Part shown: piece after piece, positions 8,818 to 9,834 of the stretch | How the letters are laid out: each line of letters opens with the position of its first letter | Numbering within the stretch: the stretch's first letter is position 1 | NCBI RefSeq assembly: GCF_000426445.1 | Contig: NZ_AUFJ01000009.1 | Coordinates: forward strand, 186,001 to 250,000 | Length of the DNA: 64,000 nt | Direction: 5' to 3' | DNA from: Brevibacterium album DSM 18261 | GTDB lineage: Bacteria; Actinomycetota; Actinomycetes; Actinomycetales; Brevibacteriaceae | Position numbers and translations under genes: made by a program | The notes under the pieces: model-generated | Told to the model about the DNA's origin: nothing | What the model saw: the letters and a program-made list of their open reading frames with translations, nothing else | Databases searched by the model: none

Positions 8818-9834
8818 ATGACCACGCCCACCTCACTCCTCAGGTCCTCCGTCACTCCTCCCGGATACAGGCGCGACCCTGCCGCCCGCCTGCGCCCGAT
8901 CAACTGGAACCGGGTCTCCGATGAGAAGGATCTCGAGGTCTGGAACCGCCTCACCGCCAACTTCTGGCTGCCGGAGAAGGTCCCGCTGTCCAACGACCTC
9001 CCGGCCTGGCGCGGCCTCTCCGCCCCGGAGCGCACGTTGACGATGCGCGTCTTCACGGGGCTGACGATGCTCGACACGGTCCAGGCCACGGTCGGGGAGA
9101 TCTGCCAGATCCAGGACGCACGCACCGAGCACGAGGAGGCGGTCTACACCAACATCGCGTTCATGCAGTCGGTTCATGCCCGCTCCTACTCCAGCGTGTT
9201 CTCCACGCTGACCAGCACACCGGAGATCGACGACGCCTACCGCTGGGCGGTGGGCAACGACCTGCTCCAGCGCAGGTGCAAGGCGGTGCTCCAGCACTAC
9301 TGCGGGGACGACCCGCTCAAACGCAAGGTCTCCTCCACGCTGCTGTCGTCCCTGCTGCTCTACGCGGGCTTCTACCTGCCCCTGCACTTCTCCGTGCACG
9401 CCACCCTGACGAACACGGCGGACATGATCCGGCTCATCCTCCGCGACAAAGCGGTCCACGGCTACTACTCCGGCTACAAGTACCAGCGCGGTCTCGAAGC
9501 GCACGGCCCCGAACGGCAGGAGCACATGCGTGAGTTCACCTTCGCCCTGCTGGAACAGCTCTACGAACTGGAGCTCGAATACTCCGGTGAGCTGTATGAG
9601 CCTCTCGGGCTCATGGACGACGTGTCCGCATTCGTCCGCTACAACGCGAACAAGGCTCTCATGAACCTGGGGTACCCGGCGCGGTTCGCCACCGAGGAGA
9701 CAGCGGTCAGGCCCGAGATCCTCGCGGCCCTCTCGCCCGGCGCGGACGAGAACCACGACTTCTTCTCAGGGTCCGGCTCCTCCTATGTCATCGGCACAGC
9801 GGTGGACACAAGTGACGAGGACTGGGATTTCTGA
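8818..9834 (+). CDS. nrdF: RNR radical subunit NrdF, class Ie (QSK) signature
   Basis: Small subunit of a class I ribonucleotide reductase, 338 aa, ATG after GAAAGGAA. It aligns end to end with class Ib NrdF and has the usual C-terminal tail ending DEDWDF that docks on NrdE. Three of the four carboxylate metal ligands are changed. FMQSVHARSYS has Gln117 where Glu is normal. TLLSSLLLYAG has Ser177 where the family has FLES. LILRDKAVHGYY has Lys211 where RDEAVH is normal. Asp86 (TMLDTVQ), His120, His214 and the radical Tyr124 remain. Gln-Ser-Lys is the QSK variant of class Ie, in which a metal-free, DOPA-type radical replaces the dimetal cofactor; that chemistry is family knowledge, not shown here. 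The intact frame and adjacent nrdI argue for a working enzyme. Confidence 0.93.
   Translation: MTTPTSLLRSSVTPPGYRRDPAARLRPINWNRVSDEKDLEVWNRLTANFWLPEKVPLSNDLPAWRGLSAPERTLTMRVFTGLTMLDTVQATVGEICQIQDARTEHEEAVYTNIAFMQSVHARSYSSVFSTLTSTPEIDDAYRWAVGNDLLQRRCKAVLQHYCGDDPLKRKVSSTLLSSLLLYAGFYLPLHFSVHATLTNTADMIRLILRDKAVHGYYSGYKYQRGLEAHGPERQEHMREFTFALLEQLYELELEYSGELYEPLGLMDDVSAFVRYNANKALMNLGYPARFATEETAVRPEILAALSPGADENHDFFSGSGSSYVIGTAVDTSDEDWDF

Follow-up and report, generated by a model that had tools for sequence, protein, structure and literature searches.

In the window, that is, the whole stretch of 64,000 nucleotides of Brevibacterium album DSM 18261 analysed here, the nrdF gene at 8818-9834 very probably codes for an intact class Ie NrdF of the QSK clade, predicted to carry a metal-free DOPA made by NrdI at Tyr124 and likely to supply the only NrdE found in the genome with a radical that costs no metal, in addition to the one from a class Ib NrdF. 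The class Ie-QSK, including nrdIF operons devoid of nrdE, is already known from the account of John et al. 2025 (PMC11846895). What is new here is how the family is wired: QSK operons often have as neighbours an MntR-type regulator, an ABC transporter of Mn/Fe/Zn type or an FMN reductase, and a palindrome or a cobalamin riboswitch may precede the operon. No earlier report of a manganese wiring, a B12 wiring or an FMN reductase link of QSK was found in the open-access papers searched. The features that matter are the following (window positions, strand, basis of the assignment in brackets).

3070..3744, minus strand: MntR-type regulator of the DtxR family, 4.6 kb from nrdIF (domain matches, subclade tree)
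3786..5579, minus strand: N-acetylmuramoyl-L-alanine amidase-type protein, flanked by mntR and guaB (domain match; start uncertain, the reading frame being open to 5813)
6408..7943, minus strand: guaB, IMP dehydrogenase, divergent from nrdI (TIGR01302 above cut-off)
8238..8253, plus strand: distal NrdR-like box gaactagatatcgcgc (pair score)
8270..8285, plus strand: proximal NrdR-like box acacaacatctggtgg (pair score)
8325..8807, plus strand: nrdI, predicted activating flavoprotein (PF07972 and TIGR00333 above cut-off)
8818..9834, plus strand: nrdF of QSK type, class Ie R2 (translation, ligand alignment, PDB match, trees)
10018..10752, plus strand: GNAT acetyltransferase, directly after nrdF (domain match)

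The nrdF frame translates into 338 residues followed by a terminal stop, with no internal stop, and matches the ribonucleotide reductase small subunit family PF00268 at 264.9 bits. Residues 86, 117, 120, 124, 177, 211 and 214 align as D, Q, H, Y, S, K and H. The three glutamate metal ligands that define class Ib are therefore missing, replaced by Q117, S177 and K211 (codons CAG at 9166, TCG at 9346 and AAA at 9448), while the protein displays the marks of class Ie-QSK: the Gln/Ser/Lys set together with the retained Asp, two His and radical Tyr. Since every aligned NrdF row reads either Q/S/K or E/E/E, never a mixture of both, this set is more than a product of chance. A preliminary description of this DNA had read the intact frame, the three substitutions with their codons and the retention of Asp86, His120, His214 and Tyr124 exactly so. 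It had also forecast that automated annotation would make the protein an ordinary class Ib subunit, as is indeed the case with the NCBIfam model TIGR04171 ('class 1b'), which scores 425.5 bits against a cut-off of 355.

The assignment to class Ie-QSK put forward in that description is backed by the ligands, the trees and the adjoining nrdI. In a quick tree of 115 NrdF rows, 109 of them different, one branch with an SH-aLRT of 100 separates 42 QSK rows (the window protein, 40 proteins from fetched loci and a PDB chain) from 73 class Ib rows. When the three ligand columns are removed, a quick tree of 41 QSK and 12 class Ib rows is split again, with an SH-aLRT of 100. Sporadic loss of ligands inside canonical class Ib, the outcome that would have spoken against the early reading, is not supported by the trees, with or without the ligand columns: the window NrdF lies within the QSK clade. 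Its nearest PDB chains are 8RAG and 8RAH, the R2e-QSK of Gardnerella vaginalis, also named Bifidobacterium vaginale. Alignment with 8RAG proceeds over residues 6-338 with no gaps and an offset of 26, so that Q117, S177, K211 and Y124 correspond to Q143, S203, K237 and Y150 of the solved structure (PMC11846895). Because of this aligned range, the window protein probably also has the N-terminal extension by which, according to the same source, one Gardnerella monomer touches the other. Judged from its sequence, the gene at 8818-9834 is a genuine class Ie-QSK R2, in an already described nrdIF arrangement, with Tyr124 as the predicted DOPA site.

Biochemical characterisation of the QSK type is provided by John et al. 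2025 (PMC11846895). There, the Gardnerella homologue is reported to contain trace metal only, to form DOPA only with NrdI and to be active only with DOPA; in its structure a lysine ammonium occupies the place of Mn1 and a water that of Mn2, with traces of Mn and Fe. It has in common with the window protein the Q/S/K set, the Asp/His/His/Tyr residues, the N-terminal extension (within the aligned range) and the NrdI partner. Among the best 80 loci retained for comparison, the Gardnerella loci are 67% identical to the window NrdF and have neither MntR-type nor FMN reductase neighbours. Their order is nrdHIEF, with an R1 of its own, whereas the window displays nrdIF alone, beside a class Ib system elsewhere in the genome. 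The nrdIF-QSK stretches in the survey of John et al. 2025 (PMC11846895) have the same nrdE-less gene order, with nrdE located elsewhere. In the available part of its text that survey deals with RNR genes only: the word 'MntR' occurs 0 times, and regulators, palindrome, riboswitch and FMN reductase are absent. The class Ie-VPK enzymes (Mesoplasma florum, Aerococcus urinae, S. pyogenes; PMC8463856) likewise have the three Glu replaced, a DOPA radical and a dependence on NrdI, but they read V/P/K with the order nrdFIE, where the window has Q/S/K and nrdIF. According to this review, the S. pyogenes class Ie operon is repressed when Fe and Mn are raised (PMC8463856), a parallel to the wiring that we propose for the QSK family.

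In the window, nrdI probably starts at GTG 8325, with a purine-rich stretch ahead of the start, and its stop ends at 8807, 10 bases before the ATG of nrdF; the coupling of the two genes claimed earlier is thus true as adjacency. We found no nrdE in this operon, nrdF being followed by the GNAT acetyltransferase gene. The genome searched (4.09 Mb, 15 contigs, 99.8% complete) codes for two NrdF, two NrdI and one PF02867 large subunit; a search for class II and class III reductases yielded neither a further PF02867 protein nor any match to NrdD. At C2:24.5-28.4 kb an nrdHIEF operon codes for the other NrdF, which has the E/E/E set of class Ib and is thus the metal-type counterpart that the preliminary description had suggested to look for; the sole R1 (NrdE) found in the genome sits in this operon. 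The C-terminal tail of NrdF is the part that binds R1. In the last 30 residues, the QSK and class Ib proteins are identical at 24 of 30 positions. With two NrdF, one NrdE and tails so alike, sharing of NrdE is likely; John et al. 2025, who counted 104 nrdIF-QSK stretches, infer a shared R1 generally (PMC11846895). NrdI would convert Tyr124 of the QSK protein into DOPA with no metal involved, as in the Gardnerella homologue, and this protein would pass its radical to the single NrdE that otherwise serves the class Ib NrdF. Two radical subunits on one NrdE would allow a metal-dependent and a metal-free radical source to be compared on the same catalytic subunit.

Gene neighbourhoods were compared in the best 80 loci of a single scan that favours close relatives, 37 of QSK type and 43 of class Ib, over a distance of up to 6.3 kb from nrdF. 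Contig ends truncate many of the loci, and members of one genus do not count as independent, so that p-values computed from these counts are overstated. In this sample of best loci an MntR-type gene is present in 11/37 QSK loci (3/15 genera), a metal-ABC binding protein in 6/37, a metal-ABC permease in 3/37 and any of these three Mn-type genes in 15/37 (5 genera), in each case against 0/43 for class Ib. The transporter copies of locus L056 match Mn/Fe/Zn uptake families, with NCBIfam matches below the curated cut-offs, and the best NCBIfam models for the QSK-linked transporter, again below cut-off, are of Mn/Fe types (EfaA, PRK15056); manganese is the likely metal. Because several related bacteria keep QSK beside predicted genes of manganese sensing or uptake, the QSK subunit is likely to be helpful when manganese is short.

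With an identity threshold of 50%, an FMN reductase accompanies 18 of the same 37 QSK loci (9/15 genera) and none of the 43 class Ib loci; an NAD(P)H-dependent FMN reductase-type gene is thus seen at L037:7285-7863 and in 17 further QSK loci. Looser relatives (at least 30% identity) occur in 5/43 class Ib loci of this sample, all of them Gordonia, Segniliparus, Rhodococcus or Williamsia, where they lie upstream of nrdH. We consider the QSK-linked enzyme a candidate NrdI reductase: John et al. 2025 had no protocol for the constant replenishment of reduced NrdI (PMC11846895), and the conserved FMN reductase might well be what reduces NrdI. There is no such gene beside the window operon; the genome has six PF03358 matches, the best of them 32% identical to the QSK-linked enzyme. 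Within the same best 80 loci NrdH follows the opposite trend (3/37 QSK vs 23/43 class Ib). Two further genes are seen on the QSK side, with 0/43 in class Ib: a divergent GTP-type PEP carboxykinase (7/37; L037:1167-3092, then L039-L042, L051 and L060) and a small ORF of about 95 residues (11/37; for example L037:6965-7252 and L045:2903-3241), the L037 copy of which matched no Pfam or NCBIfam model.

The MntR-type protein of the window has three DtxR-family domains above cut-off. Its best NCBIfam model is that of MntR, at 168.5 against a cut-off of 350, and its best PDB match is 5zr4, an entry entitled 'metal-dependent transcriptional regulator', which we take to be MntR of M. tuberculosis; Asn is found at a position where 5zr4 has Asp. 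A quick tree of 59 MntR-type proteins was made, from which the twelfth QSK genome of Brevibacterium was left out (G009, 59% identity match), as were 10 of 45 non-QSK genomes (nine with weak matches only, and G005 with a split match). A group of 18 (SH-aLRT 87), to which the window protein belongs, gathers 11 QSK Brevibacterium genomes, five QSK-linked proteins of Brachybacterium and Corynebacterium, and two non-QSK genomes (G052, G004). A separate group of 33 (SH-aLRT 99) contains 28 proteins from non-QSK genomes and five paralogues from QSK genomes. Outside both groups, partly on long branches, are two Actinomyces and one Corynebacterium protein linked to QSK, and five non-QSK proteins. The subclade thus accompanies QSK in Brevibacterium even when the genes are not adjacent (G017, G044, G069). 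The recognition helix has Gly and Pro in the proteins of the window, G058 and G069, at positions where the others compared have Asp and Arg/Lys (3070-3744; L145, L147).

A palindrome of 20 bp, AASTWCG-N6-CGWASTT, recurs before the QSK operons. Its half-site was derived by visual inspection of these same QSK sequences upstream of nrdI, and the palindrome was scored over 14 positions, with a threshold of at least 12, in 29 non-redundant QSK regions (of 43) and in 27 class Ib regions. With the spacer of 6, the threshold is reached in 19/29 QSK regions against 0/27 for class Ib, and at least 13/14 in 10/29. When the spacer is set to any different length between 0 and 12, no more than three QSK regions reach 12/14; a single class Ib region of 27 does so, at spacer 5. 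One of the 19, in Gardnerella (L069), is probably due to chance, as 12% of shuffles reach its score. The ten QSK regions below threshold include the window, all four Streptomyces, Acidimicrobiia and G069; a TTTG-type palindrome, ATGTTTGGTCTAGCAAACAT, precedes nrdI in the latter. Upstream regions of mntA, which were not used in drawing the half-site, carry the palindrome in 6 of 13 cases. It is found at 14/14 in G017 and G044 and at 13/14 in G052 and G004, all four on retrieved stretches that showed no nrd gene, and inside the divergent mntA-nrdI interval of two Brachybacterium. The seven mntA regions without it are those of G058, G069 and five others, though in the three loci of B. linens type the site is separated from mntA by the small ORF of about 95 residues. 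All this fits a putative MntR operator. A variant operator for the MntR group of the window was considered and dropped, since G058 has a standard 12/14 site.

The promoter of the window operon tells another story. Two NrdR-like boxes precede it, at 8238 and 8270, in keeping with the pair some 31-32 bp apart expected of NrdR control: the pair scores 22/32 at a spacing of 32 bp, a value reached by 0/100 shuffles, when compared with the NrdR box consensus. The proximal box, acacaacatctggtgg, is one base off acacaacatctagtgg, the box before the genome's own class Ib nrdH. In 13 of 31 QSK regions tested, the NrdR-like pair is reached by at most 1/100 shuffles. As for the Mn-type palindrome, the best place in the window promoter (8175..8194, plus strand) scores 9/14 and is not recognisable as a site; manganese control of the window copy is therefore only possible. 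The preliminary description thus stands in its class Ie assignment; its proposal that the enzyme works under metal starvation finds a basis at the level of the family, in the Mn-type neighbours and the shared palindrome, and none in the promoter of the window.

A different switch is seen in other lineages. A cobalamin riboswitch (84-95 bits) precedes the QSK nrdIEF operon in five out of five cases, four in Streptomyces (L046, L048, L055, L059) and one in Acidimicrobiia (L061), its end lying 141-179 bases ahead of the first aligned nrdI residue. These are five of 33 QSK loci scanned (L067, L069, L070 and L113 being outside the scan); the riboswitch was found in none of the 28 others, in none of 11 class Ib loci scanned (of 43), and not in the window. 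Streptomyces also possess the B12-dependent reductase NrdJ. In Propionibacterium acnes, the B12-independent nrdAB and nrdDG are described as lying behind cobalamin riboswitches (PMC3848588), and the Streptomyces QSK operons resemble them as B12-independent reductases in the same position, although nrdAB and nrdDG belong to other RNR classes and the window has no riboswitch.

Taken together, these observations suggest that the QSK subunit is, in the family at large, a backup enzyme, the expression of which would respond to the cofactor on which the main reductase of the host relies. In manganese users MntR would act through the 20-bp palindrome, and in Streptomyces and one Acidimicrobiia genome the cobalamin riboswitch would be the switch. 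We give a little less than an even chance to the full proposal, in which actinobacterial QSK is an insurance against cofactor shortage: MntR and the palindrome would be common to QSK and mntABC in manganese users, the riboswitch would take their place in Streptomyces and relatives, the FMN reductase next door in half of the loci would be the missing NrdI reductase, and the window lineage would have kept MntR and nrdIF with no manganese transporter between guaB and the amidase gene, unlike a close relative. That relative, G058, has the identical guaB-nrdIF-GNAT order and, spread over two contigs, a Mn-type transporter that separates guaB from the amidase and mntR genes; no Mn-type transporter lies in the corresponding interval of the window (5579-6408). 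For the binding protein of the G058 transporter, the best matches in the window genome are 24-34% identical, and Nramp-type matches are present there. To be sure, the Corynebacterium QSK loci analysed here carry the palindrome, and John et al. 2025 describe species of Corynebacterium that have no RNR other than QSK (PMC11846895). This does not sit well with a simple backup role, since it would be odd to repress the one RNR of a cell. With this wiring, the question of when class Ie is used becomes directly testable, and cheap, specific tests in harmless actinobacteria could start from the palindrome, which some mntABC promoters also have, from the QSK-accompanying MntR subclade or from the cobalamin riboswitch.

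A serious competitor, which we hold somewhat doubtful, is that the pair in the window is a second R2 under NrdR alone, meant for low dNTPs and with no link to manganese. The NrdR-like pair unmatched in shuffles and the promoter devoid of a recognisable palindrome speak for it. Furthermore, MntR adjoins guaB in G017 and G044, where QSK is on other contigs, so that the nearness of MntR in the window may come from guaB. Against it are the MntR subclade that follows QSK even when non-adjacent (11 QSK and two non-QSK genomes in its group) and the Mn-type transporter protein that G058, with the same gene order, has directly beyond guaB. That the neighbours would reflect iron or zinc rather than manganese, QSK answering a general metal limitation, seems unlikely to us: the best NCBIfam models are those of Mn/Fe types and of MntR, and the closest structure of the regulator, 5zr4, is presumably that of an MntR. 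Yet the Pfam family ZnuA spans Mn and Zn binders, none of the NCBIfam matches, be it to Mn, Fe or Zn models, attains its cut-off, and the review cited above names raised Fe as well as raised Mn as repressing class Ie expression in S. pyogenes (PMC8463856).

Retention of D86, H120 and H214 could also mean that Asp, His and His hold one metal, the protein being a mono-metal variant of class Ib. The lysine ammonium at the Mn1 place, the water at the Mn2 place and the mere traces of Mn and Fe reported for the Gardnerella enzyme (PMC11846895) make this highly improbable. Even harder to credit is a recently acquired, decaying copy devoid of function. It is true that QSK NrdF is patchy in the genus, being found in 12 of 57 Brevibacterium genomes (ligand positions read in all 12), and that the 2-kb bin that holds nrdF has a GC of 0.659, against 0.689 and 0.733. 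However, frame, ligands and tail are intact, and comparison with the copy in G058, where the gene order is identical, gives a dN/dS of 0.085 over 329 codons (simple Nei-Gojobori), and thus a gene under purifying selection.

The Brevibacterium QSK proteins are scattered over several places in the QSK tree, with moderate support, which makes repeated transfer likely. A tblastn search, read by identity alone and not by ligand residues, gave three plasmid records at 80-90% to nrdF-QSK and no phage record at 80% or above. In relatives, the C-terminal tail of NrdF is found again on the strand of class Ib nrdF, at distances of 1.4 to 49 kb downstream of that gene (G014:C23:195981, G006:C25:130795, G070:C1:3144055, G018:C1:396574 and G013:C1:2702958). 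The short ORFs that these copies form were taken for integration-site copies rather than for peptides, as expected if the 3' end of nrdF serves mobile elements as an integration site.
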